DNA of 64,000 nucleotides from positions 62,001-126,000 of the forward strand of contig NW_026570325.1 of the NCBI RefSeq assembly GCF_019649055.1, in the 5' to 3' direction. The notes beneath the pieces were generated by a model. The model saw only the letters and a program-made list of their open reading frames with translations. It did no database searches and was not told the DNA's origin. Below, piece by piece: positions 1-24,862 of this stretch. Within the stretch, counting starts at the first letter, position 1. Each line of letters begins with the position of its first letter. The stretch is from Paramacrobiotus metropolitanus. Taxonomy: Eukaryota; Tardigrada; Eutardigrada; Parachela; Macrobiotidae. The position numbers were made by a program, and so were the translations under genes.

Positions 1-65
1 TATTTGCATACAATATAAGGCAGAACTTGAGCAGGTGCGCACTAAAAAGTACTTCACGCTTTTAG

Positions 66-4082: not shown

Positions 4083-6617
4083 TCATTCTTTGTAACATCC
4101 GTCGAGTATGTGCACAGTCAGCTGTCTCAGCATGGAGGTGTCCAATTCTCTTAGATCAGCGGCATCCCAGTTCTGTGGATTACCATCCGGACGGTGACTA
4201 TTCAGCCTATAACCAATATTACATTTCGTAAGGTCCAGTTTTTAACCTTTTTATACGATAGAATCAAGTGTGCATATCATGATACCCACATTTTGAGGAG
4301 CACTCGAATTCCGGCCCACTCGTCAGGATAAGCCAACTTCTGCACCCAGCCGGCGTGTTTAGCCGTGACCTTATCATACGTCTGTTGACAAATGATCGGA
4401 CAGTTGTCGTTTACTGCAGCTACAAAATGACGAACATGCTCAGCAACCGCTTCGCTCGAACGAAAACATAGTACCGGGACAACCACTTCCAGCCGAGGAC
4501 GATCTATCATCGGCCAATCCCGTACTCCTCGTCGTGGAGGCGAACTGACAGAGGGCAATACGAAGTCCACCAGTCTGTGGAGGGTCGTTGGATCAGACGC
4601 GGTGTATCTGTAATTTATCATCAGCAGCTGCTCACACACGGGCATTATCGTGCACCACCCAGTGTATGCAAATCTCCCTTGACCGTTATTCTGGCTCAGA
4701 CCCAAGAACTCGGGTAGATCATCTCCTTTATCCCAGGCGTTCTTGGCGATGATAGTTTGCAGACGCAGGCCCTTCGCTTTCAATACGGTCCTCAGTGGGC
4801 ACAGTCTGAATACTACCGACTGCGTGTATTCTTCATCATTGCGCCCTTGGTCAATCAACGCCACAGTACGCGTGTTTTGGGTAATACTACGGTCTAGCAT
4901 CGTTACAAATCTGTATTGAAAGTTGTTCCTCTCTATGGGGAAGTCAATATTTCTGGGTTCCTTGACGTACAGCGGACGGATGTCGATGACAATATGCCGG
5001 CTGCTAACTTTGTCCCCCAATAGCAGCCACCAAAGCTTGCACACCCTGGTAAATTATAATGATTACCATACCCTAACGCAGTATGTAAGGTAAACGCTAT
5101 TTAATTCCGGAAAAACTACTGCGGCATAATAAGAATTTTTCCAGGCGAATATTACTGGTTGACCTCGAAGTTCTATTCAGCATGTAGTTTCTCAGATTAG
5201 AAACATCATCATGAAAGATTATCCTACCGGCTTGTTTGTATCTGCGTAGTGATGTCCAAAGAGTGCAGAACAGAAGCCACGATCGGACGAAGTAGGTGAC
5301 TGATGGGCGTCTCATCGGCGTCTGAAAGTGAGTGTAGTCAATTTAACTGGAAAATGTCAAGGAAAATATACAGACACTTAACCCTATACGCAGTTTCGAT
5401 AATCAACAGCAAAAGAGTATGTAAAAACATAAAATATCATAGTTCATTATACTTCTGTGTATGATAATTATGATAAGTATCCGGCATAAGCATAAGCTAC
5501 AATGTAGGACGAAATGGTCGCATAGCCCCATACCCAGCATTCTGTACGCAAGCGGTGCGGTGCACTTGTACGAACCGGATATTTTTAACTTAGTCGTACA
5601 GTGCACTGCGCTGCATTCGTACTGAATGTGGATATTTTGGGTATGCGACCATTAATTTTTGTCCTAAGCTCGTATGTGGTCTCAAAGTTAAGTAGTACAT
5701 ACATGTACGGCTGTACATAGTTCATAATATTCATATCACTCACCCAGCCGGAAAGTATAAATTTCACAGTCGCTAATAACATCTCTGGGTGATTGTCTCG
5801 CCGTTTGCTCAGTAATACAGCACTGGCACGCTTCCTTTAAAGAATCTGCATTCCATAAAAAACTACGCCCAGCTGGATAATCGTGCACTTCGGCACAAAC
5901 AAAAGTAACCGCTTCTACGCCCAGCCGCACAAACATCCGACAACCGACATCAAAAGTAAACATGGCATCTTGGTGGTGCTGGTGCGCTCCGGCACAGAGA
6001 AACAGGAAACACATCATATTAGCATGTCTTGTGAACTGTGTGCAGTTTCCACAAGGATGGCCAGCACTGCTAAACGCTATCCGGCACGTGTTCGCCAGAA
6101 ATTTTGGCATGAAATTTGCACTATACAATAAATGTGCTTGGCTAAAACTGACAACATGCTTCCGGTAGACGAATCCATTTAGTTTTCCGAAGAAACTTGG
6201 TTCAATTGCAGGCGTCGGCAAATGGTCGGCAAGCTGAGTTTTGTCGACCATACGCAAGCCCGCCGAACGCGGATCATCCAGCTGCACAACGAGAAACATC
6301 TCGCCTAGACTATGGATGACGGTACCCGGTCGGAAGACCATCGGTTCGTCATCGCTGTCCCGCACTGCCACCTGCACGGATGTATTTAGATATGGTTTCA
6401 AACCGTGGAAAAAGTGGTGGGGCCATATATGTTTTGAGGGAATCCATTGTGCTGAGATTGCCCTGGCATCGAAGTCAACGAAAAAGCTGTCGCCGTCAAT
6501 ATCCTGAACGTATCCCAGCCACCATTGGCCGCTGTCGCGCTGCACAAGCACCGTGTTCCCGTAGTTGACCTCGCGTGATCCCGAATGCAGCTCGCGAAAG
6601 AATCGGCCGGAAATCAT
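4083..6617 (-). CDS. Tudor-like/F-box-like protein, intact copy (615 aa)
   Basis: Four exons: 6617-5744, 5321-5228, 5045-4290 and 4206-4083, with intron phases 1, 2, 2 and GT/AG borders. The joined frame is open for 615 codons. Residues about 18-65 form a Tudor/Agenet-like module (NTVLVQRDSGQWWLGYVQDI, then FFVDFD). A Cys/His-rich stretch follows (GHPCGNC, DVGCRMFVRLG). Residues about 292-332 form an F-box-like motif (IVASVLHSLDITTQIQTSR, then VCKLWWLLL) split by intron 2. The rest is about 280 residues of alternating short hydrophobic strands, possibly LRR-like, ending in LDGCYKE. F-box proteins normally bind Skp1 in SCF ubiquitin ligases and Tudor folds often bind methylated residues; a role as substrate adaptor is inference. 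The ATG at 6617 matches the start of the paralogues (M-x-x-GRxF); an upstream in-frame ATG at 6752 exists but is not conserved. Confidence 0.8.
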
Positions 6618-8213
6618 TTTGTCGCCAACAAGACCTGATCGGTTACGAACCGGATGATGGAGCCTACTGAAATGAACACGGATAAACATAAATACAACTG
6701 TGTGAGTTGGAACTCTTAAAGAAAAGTACTTACTAGTTACTAATATTACCATACGAGTTATTCTGTAATCACGGCATTCGGTCCCGACTCACGTATTCGA
6801 GGCAAATAATAACTTTAGTAATGTCTTTAATAACTTTAATTCGAGTGAATGCAGGAAAAAATTATGATAACGATTCTGGAAATATTGTAATGGGTCGCAA
6901 GAGCACTCGTACCAAAGGACAGTGCACCGCAGATAACTTTCGAGTTTTGTATAATATGATATCTGACAGAATAGTTTCTCAGCCTAATTCACCGTAAATT
7001 TATCGGGAATGCCCAATGGCTGACACTGAGTGAGGTTGTGTGCTTTTCTGCTTGACTACGAGTACTGTTTGACTTGGTATCAGAACTAGCCCCATTCTGC
7101 CGTTTTGACCTGCTTTTGTTTAGTCTTGCCCTGCCACGATGATTCAGGAGACAGGAAAAACCGGATCTAAAATCAGTACGAGGATACTGTTATATGAATT
7201 TCGTTTTAGTACTCAGTATGTACTTGTATGTGATGCTTATTAAAAGTTTTAACGGTTTTAGAAGGACTGTCCACTATTGTTCTCGCTTGGCTGACCCCGC
7301 AGAGTCACTCGCCTGTATTATTTTATTATTAATTTTTAGCAGCATTTAGCCTACACTTCATGGTGAAATTTAATCTGATTTTTATGCTCCTTCTGCATTA
7401 TTAACACGCCAGAGCGGATTAAGGTTTTCACCAATCTTCTTTTAAAAATGATTAAACTTTGTGATGCAACCACACTACAGATACGCTAGCGGCTTACAGA
7501 AAAAGATAAGTATAGATTTTACTGTGTTTATCTGTTTGTATAAGAATAATCTGCAATTAGTAGGGATAATCCGTATCAGAAGGTCACATTCTCAGGCAGA
7601 ACTGACCGTTTCTAGCAATGTCGGCATCACGTTTCACGAACGACAAAAAAGGGTCCTCTACACATGCCGCATCGGATCTGAGCGCATACAACCCGAGTAT
7701 CATTCAAGTAAATATAAAACACAGTTAACCTTGTGATGCTGTTTGATTATTGGTCATGTACAGAGCATGTCCCAGATCAACAATAAATGGGTTTATTAAC
7801 AGTAATTAAATTCTTAAAGTACGAATGCAAGACGATGCCACGCATCAGCATGTCAAGCGGAAGTATTGTAAAAGTTCACGAAGGCAAAACAACAAGAGAC
7901 AAAACTGACACTAAGAGGGAAGCACTTCAGGAAATCTGAGCATCAAGTGCTCTTTTGCTCTTTACCACTCATCAGACCATCCGGGACTCCTAAACTAGGA
8001 TTCGAAAACTGGCAAAATGTAGTAGGTAGGGCAGCATAACCTGTTGCAATTAAAGTATAAGTGAACTAACAAACTTTTCAAAAAAAGGTTACATTCATCA
8101 TATTATCTGGAAGGATTTCTTAAAAGGGTCAAATCCTAAGGTTCTTCCATACGCTTGGTTTCTACTTAACTTACAACCAACATAGAAAGCGCGATTCAGC
8201 CAGCTAGTGTGTA
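6618..8213. other. Intergenic, no gene recognised
   Basis: An ORF at 7461-7736 shows no motif. No repeat structure was noticed. The stretch separates the F-box-like gene from the kinase-kelch gene, both on the minus strand. Confidence 0.5.
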
Positions 8214-10241
8214 TCACATGAGGTCGAAATCCAGATTCAGTGAGACTGCAGTAATTACAATCTCAGCATCTTTAAAAGCAGCTGTCCAGTCCAGAAAAAC
8301 CTGACTCTCGTTTTCCCGCAGACTAACCAACACCCATCCTGTTTCGCATTTCGTATCGCAAAACTCTATTGTGATTGCACACTCCCCTGCAGTATGTCTG
8401 CCGCCACAGATATACATTTTATCCTTGATAACGCAAGCAGCATGCTGGGATCTCGGTTGCCGAAATTGTTCAAACTTCTCCCAGTTAGCAGTTGCCAAGT
8501 TAAAACGAATGCAATCAGCCGTTGGAATTAGCGCAGCGTCCTGGAGAACTTTCCCGCCCAGAATGTACAAATACCCGTTCACGACTGCCATTGCAAATTC
8601 CCATCGGCATTGCGGCAAAGCGGGTAAGGATTCCCAGTCGTTGGTCACCGAATCGAATCGGTACAGGTGGCTCAATGTGGCACAAAATATTTGTTCACCA
8701 TATGCTACGACTGCCTCAACAGAGAAGCAGATGCTGCAACCGAAAAAAGCCACATTAAAATTAACTGCACTTCTAACGTAAAACTTTACAACGAACTTTT
8801 ATGCGTACTCAGTTAATGATGGGGGATTCTTGAGGTTTACAATACTGCCCGTAGAAACGTCCATCCTCTTAAGAAATTTTGCATCGTCCCAAAAATACAA
8901 TTTGCGATTGACCGCAATTGGGAATTTGTATCGCATCCTCGAGGAAGGCACTAAAGTACGCCATGTTCCCTGAGCGATATTCCAAAAGTGAAGTTTTGTG
9001 TTTGCGTCCTCAGTGTTATTAATGCATTCTCTGAAAATTATTTCCTTTTCGGTTCCCGTTAACTGCAAATAATGAGCGGAAAGCGAACCTGATAAAGCAG
9101 GTGCATTAAGGACTTTCTGAGTATTTAAAGATTTAGTCTGTGGATCGAATATCAATACTTTGCTGATATGATATCTGCCACAGGGAATGAATACCAGAAC
9201 TTCTTTTTTTGTAAGCGTTGACTCCTGCAGCAGAGAATCTGCGGATATTCTGTTCGCAGCAACCGGTGCTAAGCATTTTCCAATGAGATCGGCTAAATTT
9301 CTTTCAATATTGTCTCTTACATGTGGCACGTAACCGTCGATAATCAGGGTGGCATACTGGTGATGGGGAAGATCACTTCCAACGTCCACAATAATTTTTT
9401 CCTTTATGAGCTGTTTTATCGGTATACTGTGCAAAGTCTCGGCCATTTCCAGAATTACACAACCCAAACTCCAAATATCAGTTTTCCGTCCTGGTGCCTC
9501 TTTAGAAATTTGAGAGAATTTCTTTATCATTTCGGGTGACATATAGTGCATCGTGCCGCGCAACTGCAAAATATCTTCGGAACAAGTGGCGCTGCTGCGC
9601 ATTTGGATCAGATCATCCAGATCACCGATGAGGAGCTTCTGGCGACGACACTGTAAATTGCTGAGCAATATATTTTCCGGCTTCAAATCTCCATGAATAA
9701 TGCTATTCTGATGCAAAAATTGTAATCCTCGCACGATGTCCTTTATGAAATGGAATACTGTTTCACTGCTGCTCAGTAGCTTTTCGTCTTTTCTAGCTTC
9801 CTTCAAAAAGGACGCAAGATCACCTAGAACGCCATGCGTATGTTAAACAACATGAAGTTAAAGATGGATGTTGTTAGCTTTCATGTCACCGTTATGGTAA
9901 TCCATTGCCAGTTCAACGGTGAGTCCAGCAGAAGCTTTAATGATGGTAACTTTATGATAAACCACAAGATGCTCGTGCGTCAATTCCAGAAGTTTCCGCA
10001 ATCTCCTGACGGCACTCCTCCAGATTTTGTGGTCAGTAGCATCTTCGAAAATAGCCCCAATGTGGATGACTTTGACGGCCACAAAGTCACCTCCCGTGTA
10101 ATCACCACGCTTCGCAACCTTGGCCTTGTAAATAACACCAAATGTACCCCTTCCAATAAAATCTGTGTTAGAGTAGCGATATTGCACATTGCTACCCGTT
10201 TCTTCGATTGTACCGGTATCGCTGGAAAACATGCCTTCCAT
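8214..10241 (-). CDS. Protein kinase-kelch fusion protein (628 aa)
   Basis: Three exons: 10241-9890, 9823-8809 and 8733-8214. The 66-nt and 75-nt introns have GT/AG borders, and splicing gives one 628-codon frame. The N-lobe has a glycine loop GRGTFGVIYKA (residues 30-40) and VAVKVI with Lys57. The C-lobe has HGDLKPEN (Asp162), DLD at 184-186 in place of DFG, MSPE for APE at 211-214, and DIWSLGCVI. Splice 1 restores MDYHNGDLASFL, as expected for the hinge region. From about residue 330 the protein is kelch-like (SLTDICFSV across splice 2, YLYILGGKV, KMYICGGRH). The HRD arginine and the DFG phenylalanine and glycine are replaced, but the catalytic and Mg-binding aspartates and Lys57 remain, so activity is possible. 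Kelch propellers usually bind partner proteins. The substrate is unknown. The start ATG at 10241 is the first in frame before the kinase fold. Confidence 0.88.
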
Positions 10242-11173
10242 TTTATTGTCAGTTAGGAATTTAACACATGAAATTTAATGTGGTCCTGTATAAAAACAAA
10301 ATGTGTGCTTCTAATTTTACTGAACCGCGCACAATAAGCGGTATGCACTGAAAGCTTGAAAGCAAATTAAGCAATAACTGCCGCTCTTCAGATAGCGATA
10401 AGAAAATTGTGTGCAACCGTTTGCCACACTCAAAGAAAACTAAACAGTGCCGTTCAGATAACACGGCTCTGCACTTTGTAGGTTATCTGTGGTGTAATTA
10501 ACTCATAGTCTCCTGGTCTTGTTTCAGACTGTCAAAAAGAGCTCGCGGTCACATAATGACGATGAGTTTCTTGTTAAGAACAGCAAGAAAGAAAATACCC
10601 GGCTCCCCACACGAACGAGACGTTTCTGCACAAACGGTGCTACAGGGAAATAAATTTCGAGAGAATGCGAGCGTGAATATTGTGGGCCATATCTATATCG
10701 ACGTGGTACCAAAAAATTAAGTTTCCTGCTCTCTGCCACAGTACACTGCGAAAAATGCTTATACTTGAACTGGAAACCTCGCTTGGGATTTGCATATTAA
10801 GCGAGTACGCGTTGCGCAGGTGAACAATAATTATGAGATTTATGTATTACGAGTTCCAAGACTAAATGGTGTTGTACCGACGTGTGCGGTATCTGCGGCA
10901 AACCTGTTGCACTCGAAGGAGATACACTTCGTAGAACTTTACGTTATTTTTTCAGTGTTTTTAAGCGATGTAGGTTTTTTATGGTGTGTTTGATTAAAAA
11001 CAAAATTCAGTGTGCAGAGAGTTATCTTTGTTCTATCTAATGCATATGTAACCCAGGCAATGACAATAGTTCTGGCGTTGTAAAAATTGGCGAACTTTAC
11101 TGGTGGTTTTTCCACCTAGCAGACGTTGCCGGGTTAATATGTTGTCAAGGCAATAAGCGCAAATATTTGTCTA
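10242..11173. other. Intergenic, no gene recognised
   Basis: Upstream side of the kinase-kelch gene. Small ORFs at 10261-10464, 10524-10739 and 10790-10993 show no motif. No clear TATA box was seen at the expected distance. Confidence 0.45.
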
Positions 11174-11790
11174 ATTTACTCGAACAGTGGCGTTGATTGA
11201 CAAAAGGCGCAACGATGAAGAATACTACCAGTACTACACGCAATCCCAAGTGTTCCGCCTGTTTCCTCTGAAGACGATTTGTCAAGTAAACGACATACGT
11301 TTGCAAATGATCATTTCCAAGAACGTTAGGGGTAATGGAGAAGCTGTAGTGACTGCTCTACCCGAGTTTCTGGGTTTTTGAAATTATTTTGAAAATCGAA
11401 AATTCTTCTGCAAAGTGCCGTGCGAATTTACTGTATGCCGGTGTGTGAGCAGAGAGTAATCATAAAATACAGCACAACCCAACCGAGGTCTGTAAATTAG
11501 TGCACTTCATACGCAACTCTGCCGATTCTTCCATTAGATATGGTTTGCTAGATTGGCCAAAGGATAACTCGGATGGAAATGACTATTCGCTTCCTGTGTT
11601 TTCGTTCGACGGAATTGGCCGGTGAGCTTGGCGCTCTGTAACAGCGATAAACGACAACTGACAACTATCAGTCAAAAGGCGCAAAGAAAGATCATAGCCG
11701 GGCATGCGCACTTGGGGACAGACCCTGTCGTATCCCGGCGAATGGACCGGTATTCGCGTCCTGCTTCTGTTGTGCGGTATAGATCGTGTT
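11174..11790 (+). pseudogene. Fragment of the Tudor/F-box-like family (exon 3 only)
   Basis: Translation from 11174 gives TRTVALIDKRRNDEEY, then LPEFLGF before a stop, closely matching exon 3 of the 4083-6617 gene (TRTVALIDQGRNDEEY, LPEFLGL). Later pieces in shifted frames match too: MPVCEQ near 11437, EMTIRFLCFRS near 11575, and TLSYPGEWTGIRVLLLL near 11725-11775. No Tudor, F-box or last exon is found nearby. It lies on the opposite strand from all other copies, so it is an inverted, eroded partial duplicate. Confidence 0.8.
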
Positions 11791-12309
11791 GCAAAAGTCG
11801 GAAATTACAAAATGCAAAAATCCACTGTCGGTTGAGTGGTTACCTCCAGCTCCAGGCTCCGGGTCTTAGCCCACAGATCTTGGATGTCGTTGACCTAGTA
11901 CAATAGGACGTTTTTCGTGTTGGGTGTAATTTAAGTACAAACCAAACGTATGGAAGAACCTTAGCGCTTACGATAACCTTAGCAATATTTAATGCTTTTA
12001 AGAAATCCTGCTGGATATAATCAATGTAATTTAATAGTTTTTATACTGCAGCCACTGATTTCTGTCCGTTACGGAACTGCGTTACGAAAGTAACGCCGTG
12101 ACATAGCAACGTGGCAGTGATCACGCAGCTGACCGCTATGACGTCATGGCTGACTCAGGCTGACTGCCGGGTCGCAGTGGAACTGTAGCGATTGATACTG
12201 GCGATTCGTTACGGAATTAATAATTACCGCAAATAACCGCCATGATGTCATTGTTAAGTGTTGTTCTGTTGCGGGCTCGGACGTAAGTTCTTGCTGATAT
12301 AATTTTGAA

Positions 12310-12860
12310 ATGGCTACAGGCACCCCTTTTTGCACCCACGTAGACTTGAGGCACCCCTTTTCGATTAATTAATTCCAGCACCCCGTCGCGCGCGAAAGCT
12401 ATAGGCACCCCCTATTGTCCGCTGCTAAATTTTAAGGTCGAATTTTCTTGACCTTAGAGAATTTCGTCTGCTCGCCGCTGCTGCTGCTCTTCGTTTAACT
12501 TGCCGCCACATTACGCCCCGCAGAGATGGGTTGAAGCCAGAAGAGTGTGCAAACCGCTTGCTGAACGTTTGCCTAAATGATTTGTAAAGGCGGCATGCGT
12601 CCAGGTACTGCATGGCGCAGATCAGTTTATTTTGTCTCATAAGCGATAATATTATGAGACAATTTCTTGGGAACCAAAAAAACTGTCAAAAAATCTTTCT
12701 TACACCTCTGGGAAAAAAATAAAAATGGGCGCCTTCAGTCCGCTGAATAAACCGGTTTCAAGATTCATCTAACAGAAATGGGTGCCTGTAGTAAAACAGG
12801 GTGCAAACGGGGGTGCCTCTAGCAAACAGGGGGGGGGAAGGGTGCCTATAGTCTCACCCT
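12310..12860. mobile_element. Degenerate element with inverted AGGCACCCC-type subrepeats
   Basis: On the left, AGGCACCCC-like words recur near 12318, 12351, 12375 and 12402. On the right, the complement GGGTGCCT recurs near 12780, 12809 and 12839. CTATAGGCACCCC on the left mirrors GGGTGCCTATAG on the right. Ends and target duplication are not clear. No ORF of a transposase was recognised, so it would be non-autonomous. Confidence 0.5.
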
Positions 12861-14303
12861 ATAAATTTTGTCCGTTACGCAAGAAAGGAAGAGCTGTCGA
12901 TGTGAAATACATCTCAGGTATGTGCGTATTTCCTAATAGTTACCGGCAATACTGACCCCGGCAAAAATATCTCCTCCGACAGTTTTTTGTGTCTCCTAAT
13001 ACACCATCGCTGAAATATTAGCCTTTTGGTGATAATCTGCGAAATCAATGATTTGCATGATAAAACCTCGGTAACTTCATCCCCTTGTCTGTCCAATAGA
13101 AGGTTAAAACCCTTAGCTTCACTTCCATACCAGTGTTTATTACTTATTGCCTCCATATTTTAAAAATGCCGTTTTATCTTTAAAGGTCGCGCGTTCATAA
13201 TTTTTATCCAATGGTCGGCAAATTTGCGGCTTTCCTACCAAATTATTTAACAGCCCTAACACTAACTCTATTTCCCGATCTTTGGAGTCCACTTGTGTAA
13301 CTTAAGTAACTCGAGGGTTTCGTTTAAGTTACTGTATGTTACTTGCCAAAATTAGTGTCCTGTCGGCAACTTATCAAACTTTCTCCCTTCTCGACCACTT
13401 CTTTCAACACGATATCTCTTAACCGTTCTAGCGCAAATGGGTTTTTGTGGACAAACAAGTTTCAAAAGTTTAAAAAACGTTGTAAAGATATTTTTGTTTA
13501 GTCACACCTTAATGTAACTGTAAAATTTTGAGCTATATCTTTTTTTATTTAAAACGAAATTTTATCAGTTGCCTTGCCTGCGTCATGTAGTGTACTTTTT
13601 TCCGTATTCTAACTGTCTCAGCCGTTACTGCAAAACTTATCAACCCCTTCTTAAAATAAACGACAAACTCGCTTCATTTAACAATTTTTCCGTAGTGGAC
13701 AATTTCGTTTAAGCCTCGCTCCGGTCTGCCAATGCACGCCAGCGTGCATTTTCTAGTACAAATTGTGTCAGTTAACAAAACAACATAACATTATTATACA
13801 CAACGGGCACTGTTTTAAAAAGCAAGGAATCTTCCTTCTTCTTGGCTGCTGAGATTGCCTGATTGTTCTGAAATCATTCTTGCTCTTGCCCTTGCTCTTT
13901 CCCAATGAGTTTTCAGCTGATTTAAAATGTTTGTACGCTTTAGCGATCGCGCCAGTATTGGTTAACATGGTCGTAGTTGAATAACTGACTTCTGGTTAAT
14001 TCGTTCAGTTCACTAACATCACCGCCGAATCATCAAACATCGCTTTATCGTCTGCGGGTGGAGTGATTCACTCCGCTAGCGGCAGCTTAGAAGCTGCCGT
14101 TGTAATCCGTCATGCATTAGTAATGGAATCCTTAATTTACGTATTGATACCGCTGCTGTAATAGCCGGTCAAGCGAGAATAATATAAAGCTCGCAAAACA
14201 GTAAGAAACAAATTCTGGTAAAATGTTGGTAGCTGGTACACACTGCACAAATCGTCAGAATCAGTAAACAAAAACCACAAGTCAAACCATAAGGTATTCC
14301 AAC
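12861..14303. other. Intergenic, no gene recognised
   Basis: AT-rich DNA with short ORFs (12914-13156, 13768-13968) that carry no motif. No repeats stood out. Confidence 0.45.
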
Positions 14304-14727
14304 TACCGTAAAATCCGATATTAACGCCCTGGGCGTTTATTTTTTTGAGAGGCTCGGGAGGGGGCGTTTAAAACCGCAGGGGGTGTTTATTACGGGGGGG
14401 CGTCTAATTTTTCAAATGAATAACACGCTCATGATGTGTCACTTTTAACAAGGTTATTATGTATGGACATTAAAGGAATAATTCAGAAACCAAGACATCA
14501 GTTAGAAAATCATGGTTTAAGAGTGTGCATTAGCTAGATTAGCAAGATGTACCACTAAGACCGTACCGACAACAGACAAAAAAAGGGCGGCGCCGCAAAT
14601 TATTAGACGCTCCGGGGCGATAATTTCGGGGAGGGCTTTTATTATTTCGTGATCTACAAGAGGGGGCGTTTAAAACCGCACGGGGCGTTAATTTCGGGGG
14701 GGGGCCTTAATATCGGATTTTACGGTA
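14304..14727. mobile_element. MITE-like element, 424 bp, with G-run subterminal repeats
   Basis: The terminal inverted repeat starts TACCGTAAAATCCGATATTA at 14304 and is mirrored exactly by the end at 14727, 21 perfect bp in all. Inside are repeated G-rich words of the type GGGGGCGTTTAAAACCGC. No coding capacity was seen. The TIR start and internal style match the element at 28004-28290, so they belong to one family. The target duplication could not be settled. Confidence 0.8.
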
Positions 14728-14786
14728 TGTACACCATGCTGCAGCGATAATTTTGTCTTCCATATTGTGCAATGATCCATCCGCTA

Positions 14787-17236
14787 TTATTCTTTACAAG
14801 ATACGTCGAGTGCATGCGCGGCTAGCCGACTCAGCATTGAGACATCCAGGTCTCTCAGATCAGTGGCGTCCCAGTCCTGGGAACTCCCATCTGGGTGGCG
14901 ACTACTAAATCTAGAACCAATAACACATTTTATAAAACTCCATCTATTCTTGAACGTTAAATATCTCCGCATGTCACCTACAGTTTGAGGAGGACGCGAA
15001 TGCCGGCCCATCCGCCTGGATAAGCCAGTGTCTGCACCCAGCGCGCGTGCAACGCCGTGACCTTTTCATATGCCCGCTGACTCACAACCGGGCAGTTGTC
15101 GTTTGCCGCTGCCACTAACCGCCGTGCCAGCTCAACGGCCCCTTCAGCCAAACGAAAGCGCAGAAACGGAATGGTGATTTCCAGCTGTGGATGTTCGTTC
15201 TCCGGCTTATCGAGTAGATCGTCCGTTGAGGGCGAACCGGCGAAATAGAACATGAAGTACATTGTTCTCCGGAGAGCAATTGGATCGGGCCCGGTGTAGT
15301 TAATCAGCACCAGCTGTTCACATACTGGTAGCAAAATCTGCGGCACGTTGCATTCAAAGTTCCAATTCTGTTGATTCTGGTGAAAACCCAGAAACTCGGG
15401 TAAGTCTTCTCTCACATGAGCGTTCTTGGTGACGATCATGTGAAGACAAACACGTTTTGCTTTCAGTACGGCCTCTAAAACAAATAATTTGGACCCCGTT
15501 AATGCCATACTATCGCCATGACTCCTTCCTTTGTAAACCAAAGCCAACGTTCGTGTATGTCGAGTAACGCTGCGGTCCAGCATTGTTATGAATGTGTAGA
15601 GAAAGTTAGTTTTCTCGACGGGAAATTTCCACCAATCCGGTTTATGTGCGTGCAGTGGTAAATATCCAAGACAATATGCCGGCTGCTGACGGATTCTTGC
15701 AACGAAAGCTGCCAGAGCACGCACACCCTGATAAAATAATAATTAAAATTATAAATAAAGTTATAAAATACTGCAACAGTACTAAAGAAGAGACACTACA
15801 GAGAAGTGGAGAACTTTTGATGAATTTTCCATACACTTATAACTGTGCAAATAAATTTCCCAGTGAAAAATGGACTTACCGTCTCATTTGTATCTGGGTA
15901 CGAACATCCAGGGTAAGCAGAATAAAAGCGATAAGCGGATGCGGCAGGAAGCTGATACGCGTTTCTTCGACAGCTGTAAAACAGAATGTACATTGTACAT
16001 AGAGTCATGTACTGCAAAATGTTTGGGACGCTTTCAAACATCGCGATTGGAGACAAAAAAAGATCTAAATCCTTGGGATGGTTGTTTTCTGATGGATTAG
16101 ATTAGGTTCAATAGTTCTGGCGTTTTCGTGAGCCCAAGAAAAGTTCCTGTGTGGGCAGACTGTCAAAAAGTGCCTGTCACTGCAGATTTCGAGCATGTGG
16201 CACTGCAGCTGAGCGCAATACACCCAAAAAGGCACACTGAATCTATAAAGCCAGGACAAGACAGAACTGTTATCCCCGAGATTTCTTGTGGCAGGATTAA
16301 ACCCAAATTTGATTTTGACAGTAATCACTTTGGGTGTCAATACTCACCTGCCTGCAAGGGGTAAGTTGGGCAGTGGATAACCACGTCACGACTCGGTTGC
16401 CTCGACTGTTGCTCGGTAAGATAGTCTTGACACGCCACCTTCAAGGAATCTTCATTCCAGAAAAAACTCCGCCCTGCTGCATCATCATGCACTTCGCCGC
16501 AAACGAATATGACCTCATCCACGCCCAGTCGCGCATACATGCGACAACCGACATTAAATTCGTATGTGGTATAGCCGTGATTCCCCTGCGTCCCGTCACA
16601 GAAAAATTTGAAAGATTCGAGGTAAATGGGCGTTTTGATATCAGTGCAGTTTTCGTCGCACGGGTGGTTACCGCTGCCAAACGATATCCGGCACGTGTAC
16701 TCCAAGAATTTAGGCATGAGATTCAGGCCACGCAACAAGTGCGCCTGGTTGAACCTGGCAACGTGCTTCCGGTAGACGAATCCGTTACGTTTCCCAAAAA
16801 AACTCAGTTCAACGCCAGGAGTAGGCAAGTGAGCGACAAGCTGACTTTTGTCCACAATATACGTATGCGCCGAAAGGGTTGGAGGTAGATCTTCCAGGCA
16901 TACTGCGCAAAATAAGCAAAGACTGACAGTGTGGGTGACCGTGCCTCGTCGAAAGACCAACGGTTCGTTGTCCCCGTCCCGCAGCGCCACCTGCACGGAT
17001 GTCTGACGGTTTGGTGCCCAGTGCTGGAAATAGTGGTGTGGCCATAGATGTTTTGAGTGAATCCATTGAGCGTTAGTTGTGCTGGAATCGAAGTCAACGA
17101 AGAAGTTGTCGCCGTCGATATCCTGCACGTATCCCAGCCACCATTGGCCATTGTCACGCTGCACCAGTACCGTGTTCGCGTAGTTAACCTCGCGTGCTCC
17201 CGAATAAAGCTCGCGAAAGTATCGGCCTGTATTCAT
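14787..17236 (-). pseudogene. Tudor-like/F-box-like paralogue with one frameshift
   Basis: Exons at 17236-16348, 15973-15880, 15727-14982 and 14910-14787 keep the same phases and borders as the 4083-6617 gene. The Tudor-like part (NTVLVQRDNGQWWLGYVQDI), the CDENC cysteines, the F-box-like exon (FLPHPLIAFILLTLDV, then VCVLWQLSL) and the last exon (ending LDVSCKE) are all present. In exon 3 the frame that follows the splice site (VSSRHIVLDIY) breaks near 15658-15661; homology resumes in another frame with PLHAHKPDWWKFPVE. The exon is 746 nt, where intact copies have lengths divisible by three. The break is a one-base loss relative to GATATTTATCCAGTG in the next paralogue. Either a young pseudogene or a sequence error; no other defect was found. 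Confidence 0.8.
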
Positions 17237-18302
17237 GATGAGCAGCAACAGGGGCCCGGTCGGTACTTCAACCGTTGCCGAAGGAAGAATCAAGGAACTG
17301 CTTTCCCAATATACAGACTAAGCTTGAACGCAAAAGGACACTTGCTGGAATCGTTGTATCCCCACGCAAATCGCGATGTATAGTACTTTGTATTATGCAT
17401 TCAGTCCAAAACGACGTATTTTCTGCAAACTGAACTCCCTTAGCGAGCTTAATGAAAGTCTGTTGAGAGGGCCAGAAAAAAATTAAGGTCACTGAAAGCC
17501 TCAATCGGATGAACCGCTCCCAAAAGCAATCGTACCAAATAAAAAAGTTAGCTGAACAAGAGTAGATCAAAGTATAGAAAAGTTGTCTAATGTACTCGTA
17601 TATACACAGACAGACGAGAGCGGTAATTACGATGTTGTTTGTTCATACCTCTGCTCCCGTTGTAAACAGATACAGTACGTACAATTTGCGGCTAAATCAG
17701 AACTTCTTGCTGCAGTAGATTCGGTAGCTGGAGATGCTCTCTGCTGTAAAGCACAGTATTTCTAGCTATAAAATATACTCTGTGGTTGAGAATTTAAAAC
17801 GTTAAAAACTGCAGGCCGATGACGAATACACCACAACCAAAACGGTAGTATGAAAACAAGGTAGGCAGCAATCACGAGAAAGCAATGGCTCTTGGAGACT
17901 GTTATTTCGGCTGCAGCAAATAATATTATTACAAAACGGGGTCAGGAATATGGTGAATAACACATCCAGTACGGGCAAGAGAAAAGCGCGGCGACAAAAG
18001 AAAAATAGCGTTCAGCTGCTAGTCGCTCACCAATAAAACAGCATCCGTTTTACGTTTGTATCCGTTTTGCAGAGATGTGACCCCTTGCCTTTGTCAGGCT
18101 GCAACATGAACCAATGACTCATACGAAACGAACAACATGAATCATACGAATTTGCGTGCCAAGTGAGAATAGTGTACCAACCCAAAAAACAACAGAAGAC
18201 CAAAATGCAGAATACGTATGCAGGCAGTACTTCGATGTTTTTCGCTTTCGCGACAGTATTGTAACATGCAGCCTTCGCATAATAAAAACCTCACTTTTGC
18301 CT
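17237..18302. other. Intergenic, no gene recognised
   Basis: Spacer between two tandem paralogues. No coding or repeat signal was found. Confidence 0.45.
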
Positions 18303-20814
18303 TTATTCTTTATAGCATCCATCGAGTACGTGCACGACCAGCCGACTCAGCATGGTGACATCGAGTTCTCTCAGGTCCATTTCATCCCAGTTCTGTAGGC
18401 TGCCATCCGGGCGATGTCTACTTAACCTAAAACAGATACTGCACTTTGTAAACTCCGACCGTTGTCGAGACGGCCACCATATGCACATGCAACGGTACCT
18501 ACACTTTCAGGAGAACGCGAATGCCGACCCATTCCTCAGGATAAACGAATGTCTGCACCCAGCGCGCCAGCACAGCCGTGACATTTTCATAAGCTCGCTG
18601 ATTAACGACCGGGCAGTTGTCGTTTACCGCTGCTACAAAGCGCCGAGCGTGCTCAAAGGCCGCTTCACTCGAACGAAAGCGCAGAAACGGTATAGCTACG
18701 CCTGGCTGAGGATGGTCTTTCTTCGTTTCCTCTTTCCTATCCAGTATATCTTTAATCTTAACCCGCGAGGGAGCACCGATAAACAATAATGTAAAGTACA
18801 CGAGTCTCCAGACGGTAGTTGGAGTGGACGCAGTGTAGTCCATGAGCACCAGCTGATCACACACCGGCATTAAATGGCGCAGAACATTGCATTCAAAGTC
18901 CCCATTCTCTCGATTGTGGTGAAGATCCAGGAACTCAGATGAATGATCCGCCTCCTCACAGGCGTTCTTGGTGATGATCATATGCAGACGAATGCTTTTA
19001 GCTTTCAGTATGGCTTTCAGCTGAAATAGTTTGTTCCCTGTTGAGCGCGTAAACTCGTCATAACTTATTTCAAACGTCGTCGTCTCGTCGCCTCGTCTTG
19101 CCAAACCAACGCCACTGTTCGTGTATGTTTGGTAATGCTACGGTCCAATTTTCTTGTAAATCTGTAGAAAAAGTTATCTCTCTCGACGGGGAATTCCCAA
19201 TTCCTTGGCTCCGGTACGTACACTGGATAAATATCGATGACAACATGCCGGCTGCTGTCGCATTCCGGCAATAGAAGCCGCCACAGCATGCACACCCTGG
19301 TGTAATCATAATTATTATTATAAATAATTTGTACAGTAGTAGAACTGTATAAGGATCCTATGTGACTGAACGTTTTCGCGGGCACTCTACATAGACTACA
19401 CCGCGTGTGCAGAATAATTAGAATTGTAGAAAATAAATAATTATGCACATCACTTAGGATAGAACAATACAGATTATTTCAACAATAAAAACAGGGTCAT
19501 GAACGAAATTAGCAGTCCTACCGGCTTGCTTGAATCTGTGACGTGACGTCCAAGGTAATCAGGATAAAAGCCATGACCGGATGCGGAAGGCAGCTAATGC
19601 GCGTTTCCTCAACTGCAGTAAAATATAGGTTCTCATAAAATAATAGTCACACAAGTACCGTACTTCAAGATACAATTGTAGTTGTATTTATATTAGCATG
19701 CTCACAAATATGTAACTGGGACAAACTCTGCGCTTCAAACCCAGTATTAGGACACTATGTTTTCTTAGATGGCAATATTGAGCAACCGCAGAATGTCATA
19801 TTATTTCTAATGTTTGCTGTTGTAATTTCTCTTATCTGTCTTGATACCGTCATACTCACAATCAGTTGCCTGTACTTGGACAGTAGTAAGTACAATACTT
19901 ACTTGGAAGTTGAAACTACAGTGCTGCTGTACTCACCTTGCGGAGAATTTTCAAGTTGGCAGTTAACGACCAGATTCTCTTGATTCTTTCTCAGTAAGAT
20001 AGCTGTGGCACGCTTCCTTCAAGGAATCATCATTCCAGAAGAAGCTACGCCCAGCTGGATCATTGTGCACTTCACCGCAAACGAATAAGACCGTATCCAC
20101 GCCGACCCGCGCAAAAATCCGACAACCGACATCGAACTTATACTCGCCATAACGATGCCTTCCTTGACCACAGCAGAAAAATTCGAAGCGTTCCAAGTTA
20201 ACATTCCTCTTGACCTGAGTGCAGTTCGTATCACACGGATGGCCACCGCCGTTCAGCGCTAACCGGCACGTGCGCACTAAGAACTTTGGCATGAAATTCA
20301 CACCGCGCAGCAAATGCGCCTGGCTAAAACTGATGACATGCTTCCGGTAGACGAAGCCGTTTAGTTTCCCGAAGAAACTTGGTTCAAAGCCAGGCGTAGG
20401 CAAGTGTGCGACGAGCTGGGTTTTGTCCACAATATGCGGAACTGCCGAATGGGTGGAGTGCTGATCATCCAGCCGTACAGCGCAAAACGTGCTGCACAAG
20501 ATGGAGTGAGTGACGGTGCCTGGTCGGAAGACCATCGGTCCGTCATCGCCGTCTCGCACCGCCACCTGCACTGATGTCTGAGGATCTGGTTTCCAGTGGT
20601 CAAAGAAGTGGTGAGGCCATAGATACTTTGAGTGAATCCACTGAGCGTTCTTTGCGCGGGCATCGAAGTTAACAAAGAAGTTGTCGCCATCAATATCCTG
20701 CACGTATCCCAGCCACCATTGGCCGTTGTCGCGCTGTACCAGCACCGTGTTCCCATAGTTCACCTCGCGTAATCCCGAATAGAGCTCGTGAAAGTATCGG
20801 CCTGTTAGCATCAT
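18303..20814 (-). pseudogene. Tudor-like/F-box-like paralogue with two frame breaks
   Basis: Exons at 20814-19937, 19612-19522, 19296-18503 and 18426-18303. The N-terminus is MMLTGRYFHELYSG with an intact Tudor-like module. The F-box-like motif (LPHPVMAFILITLDVTSQIQ, then VCMLWRLLL) is the best F-box match of the family. Break 1: exon 1 meets a stop (TAA near 19970), although the shifted frame LVVNCQLENSPQ reaches the correct donor in the correct phase. This looks like an 11-base deletion near 19978-19988. Use of a weak GTCGTT donor just upstream would bypass it. Break 2: in exon 3 near 19108 the frame ends in RRRRLK-stop, while homology resumes in another frame as GNKLFQLKAILKAK. Two independent breaks favour a pseudogene. 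The stop codon overlaps an AATAAA. Confidence 0.78.
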
Positions 20815-22191
20815 GTTGATTCTAAATTGGAGTTTTCCTGATACTGCAATCTGTTGTTGAAAGAAAAATCAATGAGTTCTAGCTGTATGGTGAGGTCCCA
20901 CAAAGCCGGTTGCTCGTGCAGTGTAATCATGCGCGTTCCAGGTATATTATGGCATCTAGTCCGTCCAGTATGACGGATCTGGAGCAAACACAATACGATA
21001 GTCAATCCTGAATTCGAGAGGGAAGCAGAAAGCATACCCTAATGATTTGAAAGTCTTGCTATAGCTATGCTCGGCGCTCGCAGATGTGATCAAAATTAAT
21101 GGACAAAATTAAATCGATCGGACCAGAGCGCTTACCGCCTTCCTAAAGTTATACATGGCTGTCTACCGGTTACGGATTCCTTGAATTTTTACTGCTCATT
21201 CTAACGCACTACAGTATTTTTACTGTATGCGAGTATGTTTATATACAGTTCTAGAGCCCCTTCCGACCTCTGAGCAAGATAGCTCTGTCCTGTGGTTTGA
21301 CCTTGATTTCGCTCAGTACTGTTTTGGTCTTTTGTCCAACTTCGTATCAAATGTGCGGATTGATCGGAGGTAGGCAGACAAGACCTCCGATAAGTTCCGT
21401 GTTCTTTTATCTGTCTGTATACTCGTATACAAATTGAAGCGAAGCCAAATGAAGCGCTCTGTACTAGCGCTTCATTTAGCTAAGCAACCATTGGAAATAT
21501 CACTGCGTACGTACAGTATGTACACAGTACAAGTGCCGTATTTTGTTTTTGACATCCAGACGGATTTTGCCTGATTTAAAGGTTTACAACAATAGTCGTA
21601 CGTTTGCATCCGCAGTGTGACCGTGAAAGCATTCGTTTTATTGTTGCCTCTGGTCTATCGACAATTAAACAAACGGCGCAGAAATTAAATTTCTAAAAAA
21701 AACTGACACCGTTAAGTTGTTGCAGTGTCACAGCCCGTCCCGACGAGCCGGCAGTTAACCATGCAATAACAACGATAGAGGCTTTTATTACTGTACATGT
21801 AAATGCTAAAAATGCAGCTATGCTAGCAAGGGAATTATTGCGCAGCCGTTTTGCTCATAGCGCTGCATCCGGTGTATAAGATGTAACCTGCCGCATATCA
21901 AGACGTACATACGTGCTTCCGGTATTGGTATCTCAGTCAGTATCTCGATGCTTTGTTTTATCGGTTTACGACAACATGTCAAACACGAGCAAAAACATCG
22001 AGAATGCTAATAAATTTTAGAGCCAAGAATGTCGTCGATCGAGCTTGAATGATCCAGAAGTCTATGTAAATAGAGGGACCAGTACCTAAACGCTGCTAGT
22101 CTTGATGATGATGGGCATATACCAGTACGCGGCATCCAGTAGCACTACGCCCAAATTTTGTGATGCTCCGACATTCTAATCACCTGCAGCA
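20815..22191. other. Intergenic, no gene recognised
   Basis: No gene signal. A 12-bp-arm hairpin (AAATGAAGCGCT) lies at 21447-21477 with a 7-nt loop. Confidence 0.45.
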
Positions 22192-24862
22192 TCAGCGCAG
22201 GTATAGATGGGCAAGAACGGACTGCTGTAAATTGCCTAAATCTATCTTGTCAAATTTTCTCAGGTCCAGGTTATTCCATACTGCAGTCTCCTCCGGATTT
22301 CCACAGTCCTGCACTCCATAGCTGCAACGAAGCTTTACTCGATAATGATTCCGATACAATGAACATGCGGCGATAACATTATTCTCAGTAGCGAAGGATC
22401 TACCGACTTAAAACGTTGTACGACAGGTCACACTTACAACTGGAGTAAAAGTCGTAGACCGTCCCATCTGTGGCCCGGATACCACACCGTCCGCACCCAG
22501 TGAGCGTGCAATCTTCTTAAACGCTTCGTGATTTTGTGGTCCACGGCTGGGCAGTGGCGTTCTAGCGCGCGCTTAAAGCACCGCAGAGCTTCAGTTTCCG
22601 CAGTATCGAAATGAAGGGCGGGAATCACTATCAGCAATGCGAACGGTTTGCTCCTTGGCGCCACGTTGCGCATGGACCAGCGGGACCCGCCATGCACAGT
22701 TGGAGGTATGCATCCCATGGAGAAATCGATCACAAATTGGCGCACTTCCAGATACCGGCAGATGGTTTTCAGTCGCAACAGCGGTAAAAATGTTTTTCCG
22801 AGAATGGGATCGTTTGCGTAGTGCGAATTCATTTCCAGCGCCATGCGGCAATGCTTGACAAATATCGCGGAAAAGCATAGTTTCTTCAAACTGATGATTG
22901 CAGTTATGCAACTAACCACGGCTGAAATGCAGTTGGTACGGTGGTTCATATGGAGCAGAGATAGAACTTTTGTTTTCTGGCTGACAGTGCGCTGGAGGAG
23001 TAGCGCCAGTCGGTAGCCCTCGGTCCCCGGCTGTCCCGCCCACTCGGAACTAAGTCGTGGAAAGTCGATGGTGACGTACGTTGCCGCTGCCGGGTCAGGC
23101 AGCAGTTGATCCCATAAACTGTTCGAGCTGCAATTAGCAGTCTGGTTAACTCCAAAGCTTTTAAACATGCTTCTTAGAAATGCAGTCCATAACTCCACTG
23201 TGCTTAGTTAAGATAAGACAAAATTTCCAATCCTATGGCATGATAAACAGTTCGTTCTTAGACGTTATGTAATGGGGGGCAAAACTAAATGTGTTCCACC
23301 ATTTCCGGCTACTGCTGATGTTAGCCAACTGGTGGTTTACGCTAGACAGCTTTAATGTACAGCGCTGCAGTAAGCAATTAGATTACAGGTACATCCGACA
23401 ATTGCGGTAAAAGTGCATGTGAGCAGGTAACTGTAAGCCCAGTGCAATCAAGAACGACGTGTACCGTCAATGCCACACAACCTTAATAGCACCGCTTTAC
23501 ATAAAACAAGGTCAAGCCTTAACGTAAACGTTTTGTTTTGCCCACTATTACTTAGACATTTGTACTGTACTGTCACCGGCGGATACATCCATTTCTCACC
23601 GTTTGGCTGCTGCCTGCGAGTGGACATCCAAATGGAGGAGGATCTCCGAAAGAATTTCCGATGGTGTACCAAACAAGACCACTTGATCGTTTTCTAGAGC
23701 AAACCGTTTTCATGTCGAGCGGTTGTTCTCCAGATACTATTATAATTACAGAATACTATAATATTATCGGGCTGCTGTTTCCAGTCAATTGTCACCCATG
23801 TTCTCTTGTATGTATGCTAGTACTCGCGTACTTTTTGATTTTGTTTTCATTCATACTCGTACCTGCAACCTGCAGAACAAAGGCGCGATCGCCAGTTCTT
23901 GGTCCATAACAGTACTGGTGAATGTAGCTTTCCATAGCGAACGAGATCTTTTTGGCGGTATCTGCTTTCCAGCACTCGCTACGGCATGATCGGTTGGATT
24001 TCTTCGTTTGATGAAAACACGAAACGGTCTGGATTATGAACGTGATTGACCCTCTACTGATGCGAACAAAGAGCTTGTCCCATCCGAAGTAGAATATGTG
24101 TTCCTACAAAACGAAAAGCCCTCTTCATGCAACGGAAAAATGTAGCAGTAGAAGAAACTTATTTGAAAGATTGATCCCACATGCGATGTTCATGAAAATT
24201 TAATAGCGCATTAGCCGAATTCTGTGGCAACTGACCAACCAACCATACGGAGCCCGGCCATCCCGGAAACCCTTATCCAGTAGTGCAGTAACGTGGTGCT
24301 CCTCAATATTAGCCAGATAATCCAGTTTCTCCGAACGGTAGATCACTTTCATAAGGGGAACTTCCTTGATTTTCATAGGACGGTGCAGATCGTCGTCAGT
24401 GTCGTTGGTGGGCAGCAAACTGGTCATTTGCCAGTGATGGACGACACGAAACGCGGCATCTGGATCTCCAGATTCCAGAGAAACGCAGCAAAGATATGAC
24501 GTCGACTGGACACAATTGCGCAGCAGTTTCGCTGGACGGAAAATGTACGGTCCAGTTTCTTCCTCGCGCAGTGCCACGAAAACACTATTGTCAGGCTGCA
24601 CGCTGCTGTTCATCCACAGTTCCGGACGGTACGCGTACACTCGGTCGGATGACACCCACCACGGTGGGAACTTTGTACAGTCAAAATCGACAAAGACTTT
24701 ATCGCCGTCCACGTCCTGAAGGTACGCGAGATACCATTCATCGCCGACTACATTGACCATTACCGTGTTATTGATGTTAAACTGACCACGGCGTTTAGTA
24801 CCAGAAAAATATGTATTAGCTGTTTCTATCATGGCTCCACACACGAACGTCTTACTCGTCAT
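22192..24862 (-). CDS. Divergent Tudor-like/F-box-like paralogue, intact (about 618 aa)
   Basis: Proposed exons: 24862-24236, 24103-23863, 23693-23600, 23202-22438 and 22321-22192, giving one frame of 618 codons. The last three introns have exactly the phases of the other copies (1, 2, 2), and exon 2 is 94 nt as in two of them. The Tudor-like part reads NTVMVNVVGDEWYLAYLQDV. The F-box-like motif is clear: TPSEILSEILLHLDVHSQ, then TVELWTAFL. The last exon keeps NLDLRKFD. It has an extra intron inside the region that is exon 1 in the paralogues (donor GTCAGT at 24235, acceptor GTAG at 24104); this border is the least certain part. It lacks the Cys pairs of the other copies. It is likely the oldest branch of the cluster and is functional by its open frame. 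Confidence 0.72.

Follow-up and report, generated by a model that had tools for sequence, protein, structure and literature searches.

Predicted F-box proteins with a Fragile X-type tandem Tudor module form a large family in the tardigrade Paramacrobiotus metropolitanus

Introduction

A window of 64,000 nucleotides of Paramacrobiotus metropolitanus DNA (contig NW_026570325.1, positions 62,001 to 126,000) contains four related minus-strand copies, here called A to D, in which a first-pass annotation had seen a Tudor/Agenet-like module followed by an F-box-like motif. Do both parts really belong to one protein, and what kind of family would such proteins form? We addressed these questions by sequence profiles, structure models and the comparison of paralogous loci, with all splices inferred from genomic DNA.

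Copy A is an intact gene with a tandem Tudor front end

Copy A (4083..6617, minus strand) had been proposed to join into 615 residues, and this was confirmed. Its four exons (5744-6617, 5228-5321, 4290-5045 and 4083-4206) are bounded by GT/AG sites and give a spliced frame of 615 aa without a stop, in the order tandem Tudor, Cys-rich region, F-box and C-terminal region. The expected Tudor at about residues 18-65 and F-box at about residues 292-332 were both present, and the AlphaFold2 model showed a second Tudor at about residues 78-134 that the annotation had lacked. Tudor 1 covers residues 15-67 (6417..6575, minus strand) and Tudor 2 residues 78-134 (6216..6386, minus strand), and the block means of the Tudor model were 62-83 across residues 21-130. 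When this model was searched with Foldseek, FMRP/FXR filled the top nine places (E 8e-7), and in VIA the pair was superposed on the tandem Tudor of FMRP/FXR with Z 11.2, rmsd 5.0 and 123 aligned. The Pfam Agenet score of copy A was 20.5 bits against a cut-off of 27.

The Cys-rich region, residues 135-270 (5808..6215, minus strand), occupies the position of KH0 in FMRP. It was modelled with a pLDDT of about 27 and no resolved fold, and the idea that it might be a diverged KH0 comes from its position only. When copy A was compared with Pfam at E up to 10, no KH was matched, and thus neither KH1 nor KH2 of FMRP/FXR; PHD and SRA were not matched in Pfam either.

The F-box is split by an intron. 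Its first part is placed on exon 2 (5228..5321, minus strand) by the splice join and by the presence of exon 2 in paralogues; exon 3 (4290..5045, minus strand) carries the second part (VCKLW) and the C-terminal region, and exon 4 (4083..4206, minus strand) the C-terminal DLRELD motif. The whole copy A protein did not match the Pfam F-box even at E 10, and the excised region matched at E 0.019; since these scores are weak, the case for the F-box rests on the paralogues. Exon 3 matched no Pfam family, LRR, WD40 and Kelch included, and its C-terminal model had a mean pLDDT of 40, with a best E of 0.068 in the PDB search and none at E<=0.001.

Copies B and C are frameshifted and copy D belongs to its own subfamily

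The four genes had been described as sharing exon phases and order. For copies A, B and C this description stood, with B and C frameshifted; copy D is distant, and the Cys-rich region was not recognised in it. Copies B and C match copy A in exons and phases. In copy B, exon 1 with the Tudor pair and the Cys-rich region lies at 16348..17236, exon 2 with the first part of the F-box at 15880..15973, exon 3 at 14982..15727 and exon 4 at 14787..14910 (all minus strand), and the frame of exon 3 is lost after about 46 codons. The corresponding exons of copy C lie at 19971..20814, 19522..19612, 18503..19296 and 18303..18426 (all minus strand), and the frame of its exon 3 is lost after about 76 codons. 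A weak exon-1 donor (gtcgtt) is needed in copy C because an in-frame TAA precedes the expected donor. Copy C is also the source of the joined F-box motif that had been quoted for the locus (LPHPVMAFILITLDV followed by VCMLWRLLL).

Copy D (22192-24862) consists of a Tudor ORF at 24200..24862, recognised by alignment to copy A, an F-box exon core, TPSEILSEILLHLDV, at 23600..23672, exon 3 at 22438..23127 and exon 4 at 22192..22321, all on the minus strand. Its exon 1 was 26% identical to that of copy A and unmatched in Pfam, and phmmer returned three matches, all unrelated (best E 0.078). Its F-box is split at the same phase as in copy A and was matched by Pfam at E 0.008-0.02. The possibility that D arose from A by decay was rejected, as the six best relatives of D were 43-65% identical to it; judged by these relatives, copy D is a member of its own subfamily.

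The split F-box recurs in paralogues

Paralogous loci were fetched. L005, L006, L007, L009 and L012 overlap others and were excluded as duplicates; L001-L004, which are the window itself, were excluded as well. Exon 2 was present at 23 of 23 fetched loci; nine of these were seeds of the profile, so that the count among non-seeds is 14/14. When every phase was allowed, the best GT donor downstream of exon 2 fell in one common phase in 24/26 copies. The first donor scan had used the expected phase only and was repeated in any phase; the two exceptions, L011 and L015, have GC donors there. V-C-x-L-W codons came next after the exon-2 donor in 24 of the 26 copies, with AG at the matching place in 23 of these, and the exon-2 acceptor phase was identical in 25/26.

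Twenty-three spliced sequences were obtained; L016, L020 and L031 were excluded because exon 2 was present and the exon-3 acceptor pattern was unmatched. At E up to 1, the F-box family PF00646 was matched by 21 of the 23 (best 3.1e-7), the scores of single members being mostly below the curated cut-offs. When the spliced F-box was searched as a profile in the PDB, six weak matches were obtained, of which the top four were F-box proteins. The motif was also matched by Pfam in five of six copies from other places; L043, in which the exon-3 start is present, was left out of that scan. The proposal that the F-box becomes visible after exon 2 is joined to exon 3 is therefore borne out, the join recurring in paralogues. 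A chance resemblance was rejected on the PF00646 matches in 21/23 spliced copies and on those at other loci, and, as a sequence motif, the predicted F-box is real.

A second subfamily carries an FMRP-like tandem Tudor upstream of the F-box

F-box loci were then sampled blind to Tudor, and an FMRP-like tandem Tudor was found upstream at 13 of 20, with E-values computed for about 500 frames. Five loci (L050, L052, L053, L054 and L057) had been spotted by eye and then served as profile seeds, so that their own later matches are by construction. At L057, Tudor and F-box lie inside one single ORF, with an F-box score of 38.2 bits against a cut-off of 20.5. Subfamily 2 is, by its predicted ORFs, an independent instance of the fusion between Tudor and F-box.

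The relation of this subfamily to FMRP was visible at the level of sequence. A 16-sequence profile matched FXR1 at 5.5e-8. A ten-sequence profile, built from 10 of the 18 subfamily-2 loci, these ten being picked for an ORF continuing beyond the Tudor pair, gave six PDB matches, all FMRP/FXR (FMRP 2.7e-8), which extended into KH0. When human FMRP was compared with the genome, the Tudor exon of the F-box locus L078 (7.7e-9) came second after the tardigrade's own FMR1, a separate and ordinary gene; the pairwise match to L078 (2e-14) ran into KH0, and blastp against L061, another subfamily-2 member, gave only E 0.006.

Subfamily 1, to which the window's Tudor pair belongs, was more remote. Its profile against the PDB gave five matches, among them FXR2, FXR1 and FMRP, at E 0.1-0.6, and profile A2 gave 0 matches; Pfam Agenet was found in 9/19 members (best 2.5e-5; L018 and L026 are absent from the exon-1 alignment). 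The profiles of the two subfamilies matched each other by hhalign (95.4%, E 1.7e-8), and the match stops at the Tudor pair. Against single sequences, hhalign gave the subfamily-1 profile a probability of 5% for FMRP and 0.2% for L057, and the exon-1 profile of subfamily 1 found none of 12 and none of 32 F-box loci, so that the link between the subfamilies is one of profile against profile. From the models, the N-terminal module is two Tudor barrels in tandem, closest to FMRP/FXR, with subfamily 1 placed there by fold and via subfamily 2.

Could the Tudor and F-box exons be separate neighbouring genes, or the resemblance to an F-box accidental? The weak score of the copy A F-box on its own and the 17 of 18 subfamily-2 loci with Tudor and F-box on different ORFs would fit such an explanation. 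Nevertheless, a type-2 Tudor match lay upstream, on the same strand and within 0-2.5 kb, at 16 of 150 F-box places (one being the query's own locus), with 0 downstream and three on the other strand; this count covers 150 scored candidates of roughly 1080 and 139 Tudor places among the matches listed, second pieces of a locus being left out. With the conserved splice phases, the continuous ORF of L057 and the agreement of the spliced copies on one Pfam family also against it, we hold this explanation to be very improbable.

The Tudor 2 cage of FXR1 is absent from subfamily 1

The window's genes had been suggested to carry a possible methyl-mark reader. In PMC2970552, cage residues V, W, Y and E are reported for Tud2 of FXR1, and the binding of FXR1/FXR2 to histone peptides is described as weak. 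We mapped the cage positions onto the family by our own alignment; W97, as numbered in PMC2970552, did not fit the FXR1 sequence used here and was taken as the Trp pair near 79-80. In subfamily 1, Tudor 2 has F at the first Trp (18/19), R at the second Trp (18/19), a non-aromatic residue at the Tyr position (19/19) and E in 1/19. The cage is partly kept in subfamily 2: W in 16/16, Y/F at the second Trp in 12/16, Y, W or H at Tyr in 4/16 and E in 13/16. Since the FXR methyl-lysine cage, as given in that source, is absent from subfamily 1, the suggestion is so far unsupported there. An aromatic set in Tudor 1 is invariant in 19/19 copies of subfamily 1, so Tudor 1 may have a reader function. The mean pairwise identity of Tudor 1 is 76% (23 copies).

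The family is large, partly broken and under purifying selection

The Tudor-1 motif was found at 338 places in the genome, with 0 for the reversed-pattern control, and a family of only four genes was thereby rejected. Among motif places sampled elsewhere, exon 2 was recognised at 10/15 and exon 3 at 7/15, which establishes the F-box for part of the motif places only. The genome carries hundreds of related copies, and the sampled ones mostly join an FMRP front end to a predicted F-box. The architecture first proposed is thus supported, its scale having been understated (hundreds of loci, a Fragile X-type Tudor pair and a second subfamily).

A copy number of this size, together with an exon 3 broken in 7 of 19 assessable copies (two inside the window, B and C), raises the possibility of a mostly decaying repeat, that is, an ultra-large set of duplicates, few of them translated and without a shared function. 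However, exon 3 was intact in 12/19, Tudor 1 was near-invariant, and dN/dS in the 12 closest pairs each was far below 1, at 0.26-0.36 for exon 1 and 0.37-0.60 for exon 3, ratios that are rough because dS of the pairs used was up to about 1 (L018, L026 and L015 were left out). These ratios show purifying selection on the predicted Tudor/F-box fusion, amid its great expansion in P. metropolitanus, and we regard a decaying repeat as unlikely.

A putative set of SCF adaptors

The reading that we consider probable is a greatly expanded family of SCF adaptors, some of them pseudogenes, made of an FMRP N-terminus and an F-box. The N-terminal half would derive from the N-terminal module of FMRP (the tandem Tudor and, in subfamily 2, at least the start of KH0). 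The F-box would dock on Skp1, so that every member of the family would serve an SCF ubiquitin ligase as a substrate receptor; the adaptor role named in the first-pass annotation is in this sense supported as a putative one. Tudor 1, near-frozen among the copies, might bind one common partner, either a methylated protein or a component of an FMRP-type RNP; Tudor 2 and the C-terminal region, which change faster, might choose varied targets for ubiquitylation.

The proteins could also act outside an SCF ligase, the F-box-like motif serving other contacts and the Tudor pair rivalling FMRP for its partners as a decoy or dominant regulator. Such a role would suit an N-terminus derived from FMRP in a genome that retains its own FMR1, and the mean identities of the F-box parts (0.43 and 0.50), which are conserved no more than the rest of the protein. 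The genome has four Skp1 matches, and hence Skp1 is not co-expanded. Nevertheless, the columns invariant in the 23 spliced copies are those of an F-box (D, V, C, L and W), and the motif recurs in the copies from other places, which leaves a role outside SCF decidedly unlikely in our estimation.

For the preferred SCF-adaptor reading, the size of the arrays and the many broken copies in them point to birth-and-death evolution as in arms-race families, and by this analogy our guess at the likeliest use is defence against mobile elements or pathogens. A fuller scheme can be offered as speculation with a small chance of being right: the FMRP front end would be the recognition head of a several-hundred-member set of SCF receptors, with Tudor 1 tethering every member to a single methylated or RNP scaffold, and Tudor 2 and the C-terminal region diversifying and selecting the targets, in germline or RNP surveillance against mobile elements or pathogens. 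If the proteins are SCF adaptors, the family would offer naturally occurring variants with which to look for the ligands of the FMRP tandem Tudor, and access to a sizeable unexplained share of the tardigrade gene set.

Relation to known systems

The N-terminal module of FMRP/FXR1/FXR2 resembles the family in tandem Tudor fold and order; it is the best fold match of subfamily 1 and a sequence match in subfamily 2. Unlike FMRP/FXR, the family has an F-box after the Tudor and Cys-rich regions and occupies hundreds of places, and KH is unmatched in copy A. UHRF1, an E3 ligase of the RING type, also contains a tandem Tudor (fold match to copy A at Z 6 to 7), but has RING instead of an F-box; its Tudor pair is more remote than that of FMRP, and PHD and SRA are unmatched in copy A. 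KDM2A/B, F-box proteins of chromatin, likewise combine an F-box with chromatin-type domains, but these are JmjC, CXXC and PHD in place of a tandem Tudor.

In the portion of the literature covered by our searches, an F-box with the Fragile X N-terminal module at many loci of one animal was not found. Large F-box expansions are already known in plants and nematodes (for nematodes, the accessible part of PMC5041008). That part does not mention an FMRP-like N-terminus for the Caenorhabditis families; it describes expansions that are, like the tardigrade family, ultra-large, clustered and species-specific, and in C. elegans many of the F-box genes are said there to be pseudogenes.

Splicing and integrity of the window copies

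The Paramacrobiotus metropolitanus genome carries an expanded family in which a Tudor pair is combined with an F-box, and this architecture is under constraint. The assembly searched comprises 169.8 Mb in 533 contigs, the window being C105:62001-126000. A CAHS protein used as query recovered CAHS-like genes (best 66% identity, E 2.6e-77), which marks the genome as that of a tardigrade. The first-pass annotation had proposed four minus-strand genes with common exon phases (copies A to D; A at 4083-6617, D at 22192-24862). The splice claimed for copy A held, with 615 residues joined at phases 1, 2, and 2 and with GT/AG sites throughout. Copies B and C shared the same exons and phases, but the exon 3 frame was lost after about 46 codons in copy B and about 76 codons in copy C, and a TAA ahead of the expected exon-1 donor leaves copy C dependent on a weak one. 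Copies B and C are pseudogenes or assembly errors. The place of copy D as fourth member was retained in part: its F-box was split at the phase shared with copy A, but no Cys-rich part was recognised. Exon 1 of D was 26% identical to that of A and gave no match in a Pfam scan, and the F-box region of D reached Pfam E values of 0.008-0.02. The best six of its nearest kin were 43-65% identical. On C105, the contig of the window, the D-type Tudor exon had eight matches at 385887-469814, 260-344 kb past the window end.

The Tudor pair of subfamily 1

An AlphaFold2 model built with the four window copies had low overall confidence (mean pLDDT 44.8, pTM 0.44) and was unreliable beyond residue about 136; two barrels were predicted at residues 21-130 (block means 62-83). 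When compared with the PDB by Foldseek, the first nine matches were the tandem Tudors of FMRP, FXR1, and FXR2 (best E 8e-7), followed by SETDB1, BAHCC1, and 53BP1. The modelled barrels and these matches favour the Tudor module previously assigned to copy A. VIA-align to FMRP gave Z 11.2 (rmsd 5.0, 123 residues aligned), SGF29 gave Z 10.0, and plant Agenet proteins were near 9, so that the FMRP lead over SGF29 was small. Pfam Agenet was matched by 9 of 19 members of subfamily 1, the kin of copy A (best 2.5e-5).

The F-box and its splice in subfamily 1

The F-box claimed for copy A found no Pfam match in the whole protein, but the excised region reached E 0.019; by its sequence, copy A is a weak F-box case by itself. 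Further evidence comes from 23 distinct paralogous loci, a non-random sample picked from the best matches to copy A. An exon-2 profile, for which A, B, C, and nine of the 23 served as seeds, recovered exon 2 in every locus, including 14 of 14 non-seeds (lowest score 16.1 bits). Among the 26 copies (the 23 loci with A, B, and C), the best GT donor near the exon-2 end fell in one phase in 24, although no phase had been imposed, and the rule-based call placed the exon-2 acceptor in one phase in 25. V-C-x-L-W codons followed exon 2 in 24 of the 26, with an AG at the matching place in 23 of those 24. Splicing was feasible for 20 of the 23 loci, and the joined consensus was LPHPIxAxILLxLDVxTQxRxSRVCALW. 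With E ≤ 1 as the limit, PF00646 was matched by 21 of the 23 spliced sequences (these 20 plus A, B, and C), the strongest at 3.1e-7. When the F-box region was searched as a profile against the PDB, the top four of six weak matches were F-box proteins (E 0.2-0.7).

A second sample comprised 15 loci off the Tudor-motif list, at other genome places; all 15 carried exon 1, 10 had an exon-2 match scoring more than 8 bits, and seven had the exon-3 start. Five of six spliced sequences from this sample matched Pfam F-box or F-box-like (best 1.7e-7). Separately, three subfamily-1 loci (L011, L022, and L031) had no stop between the Tudor exon and F-box exon 2 and therefore form one frame with or without intron removal.

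Subfamily 2 and its relation to FMRP/FXR

At least 150 F-box matches were found in the genome (150 scored out of roughly 1080 candidates). From this ranking, the first 12 loci and a further 20 at ranks 13 to 127 were inspected, chosen regardless of Tudor. Within the <1 kb upstream fetched for the top 12, a Tudor-like stretch was seen by eye in five (L050, L052, L053, L054, and L057). Searched with a profile of these five, 13 of the 20 loci showed such a stretch on the strand of the F-box, no more than 2 kb upstream (first-round E 3e-11 or better, in a small database), versus 1 of 20 on the reverse strand. In the partly scored lists, 16 of the 150 F-box places, among them that of the query itself, had a Tudor match upstream on the same strand; none had one downstream, and three had one on the opposite strand. 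One 326-codon open frame of L057 holds both the Tudor pair and the F-box (38.2 bits, cut-off 20.5); in the other 17 subfamily-2 loci they lie on different ORFs. At another F-box locus, L056 (C82:274300-276200), a tandem repeat resembling a minisatellite, with more than one frame open (several in all), was noted by eye upstream of the F-box ORF.

A profile of the subfamily-2 Tudor pair (A5, 16 sequences) had 11 PDB matches with E ≤ 10, the best being FXR1 (5.5e-8), FXR2 (7e-7), and four FMRP entries (2e-5 to 6e-5); uL24m and an Agenet protein were weaker, at E 0.1 or worse. A second profile reaching beyond the Tudor pair (A6, 10 sequences) gave six matches, FMRP/FXR only; the best (2.7e-8) spanned FMRP chain positions 7-161 and extends into KH0. 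When human FMRP 1-204 was used as genome query, the genome's own FMR1 came first (2.8e-35) and C49:52112-52594, the Tudor exon at the F-box locus L078, second (7.7e-9), followed by nine more matches at E 0.04-0.75. In pairwise alignment, FMRP and L078 were 27% identical over FMRP 6-172 (E 2e-14; KDTFHKIKLDVPED versus KDKFHKYEVDLPKN), FMRP and L061 19% (E 0.006), and L078 and the genome's own FMR1 24% (E 4e-13). The N-terminus of this ordinary FMR1 (C5:3433347-3433961) resembles that of FMRP, and its 630-codon frame continues, by eye, into KH-like domains.

Subfamilies 1 and 2 matched each other over the Tudor pair with an hhalign probability of 91.7%, and in a further run of 95.4% (E 1.7e-8); exon 1 of subfamily 1, searched as an ordinary HMMER profile, did not find subfamily 2. 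The subfamily-1 exon-3 profile matched two loci among the 12 highest-ranked for the F-box (E 2e-5 and 5e-4, small set).

Family size and constraint

The family was counted by scanning for WWLGY(V/I/M)QDIDG with a degenerate pattern of 32 bases, allowing at most two mismatches. The pattern occurred at 338 places in the genome (166 + 172), F-box presence being known for sampled loci only, and the reversed pattern at 0. Copy A as query gave at least 77 matches (71 of 1559 candidates scored). Clusters were apparent among the 100 motif places listed, such as those on contigs C11 (1.78-1.89 Mb), C46, C141, and C81.

Mean pairwise identity among 23 copies was 0.76 for Tudor 1, 0.38 for Tudor 2, 0.48 for the Cys-rich part, and 0.43 for the exon-2 F-box part; among 14 copies it was 0.50 for the exon-3 F-box part and 0.31 and 0.46 for later C-terminal stretches. 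In the 12 closest pairs, dN/dS was 0.26-0.36 for exon 1 and 0.37-0.60 for exon 3; across the three exon-1 parts, Tudor 1 was lowest in the 15 pairs listed. Exon 3 was intact in 12 of the 26 copies, broken in seven, beyond the fetched piece in four, and without the acceptor pattern in three. Therefore, the family comprises genes mixed with pseudogenes.

Possible role and novelty

F-boxes bind Skp1 and deliver substrates to SCF ligases. Family members may act as SCF adaptors, in which Tudor 1 would engage one common partner, and Tudor 2 with the C-terminal region varied targets. Four Skp1 matches were found in the genome; therefore, few Skp1s would serve many F-box proteins. FXR cage residues, mapped by alignment, were not retained in subfamily 1 and were kept in part in subfamily 2. 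The binding of trimethyl-lysine peptides by FXR tandem Tudors is weak (PMC2970552).

Among the open-access papers listed, judged by titles and abstract starts, none described this Tudor/F-box fusion, and no open-access paper on tardigrades and fragile X was found. The words 'F-box' and 'Tudor' were absent from a tardigrade comparative-genomics paper (PMC5531438) and from the P. metropolitanus paper (PMC11191345); 'F-box' was absent from a 2025 Tudor-evolution paper (PMC12147562). The sequences suggest a putative F-box adaptor family with an N-terminal module new to such families.

Other ORFs in the window

Between copies A and B, a protein kinase domain ORF (PF00069, 5e-28) and an adjacent Kelch-repeat ORF lie on the minus strand at 8214-10274 (Pfam) and are perhaps one gene. 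Another Kelch-repeat ORF stands at the window edge (46-678, plus strand). Long plus-strand ORFs occur at 35180-36485 and 32619-33510, of which the segments 35180-35950 and 32619-33056 matched no Pfam family at E ≤ 0.01. Three closely alike immunoglobulin-domain ORFs, each scoring below the Pfam cut-off, were located at 27001-27879 (plus), 29541-30344 (minus), and 58877-59701 (plus), the first two being convergent.
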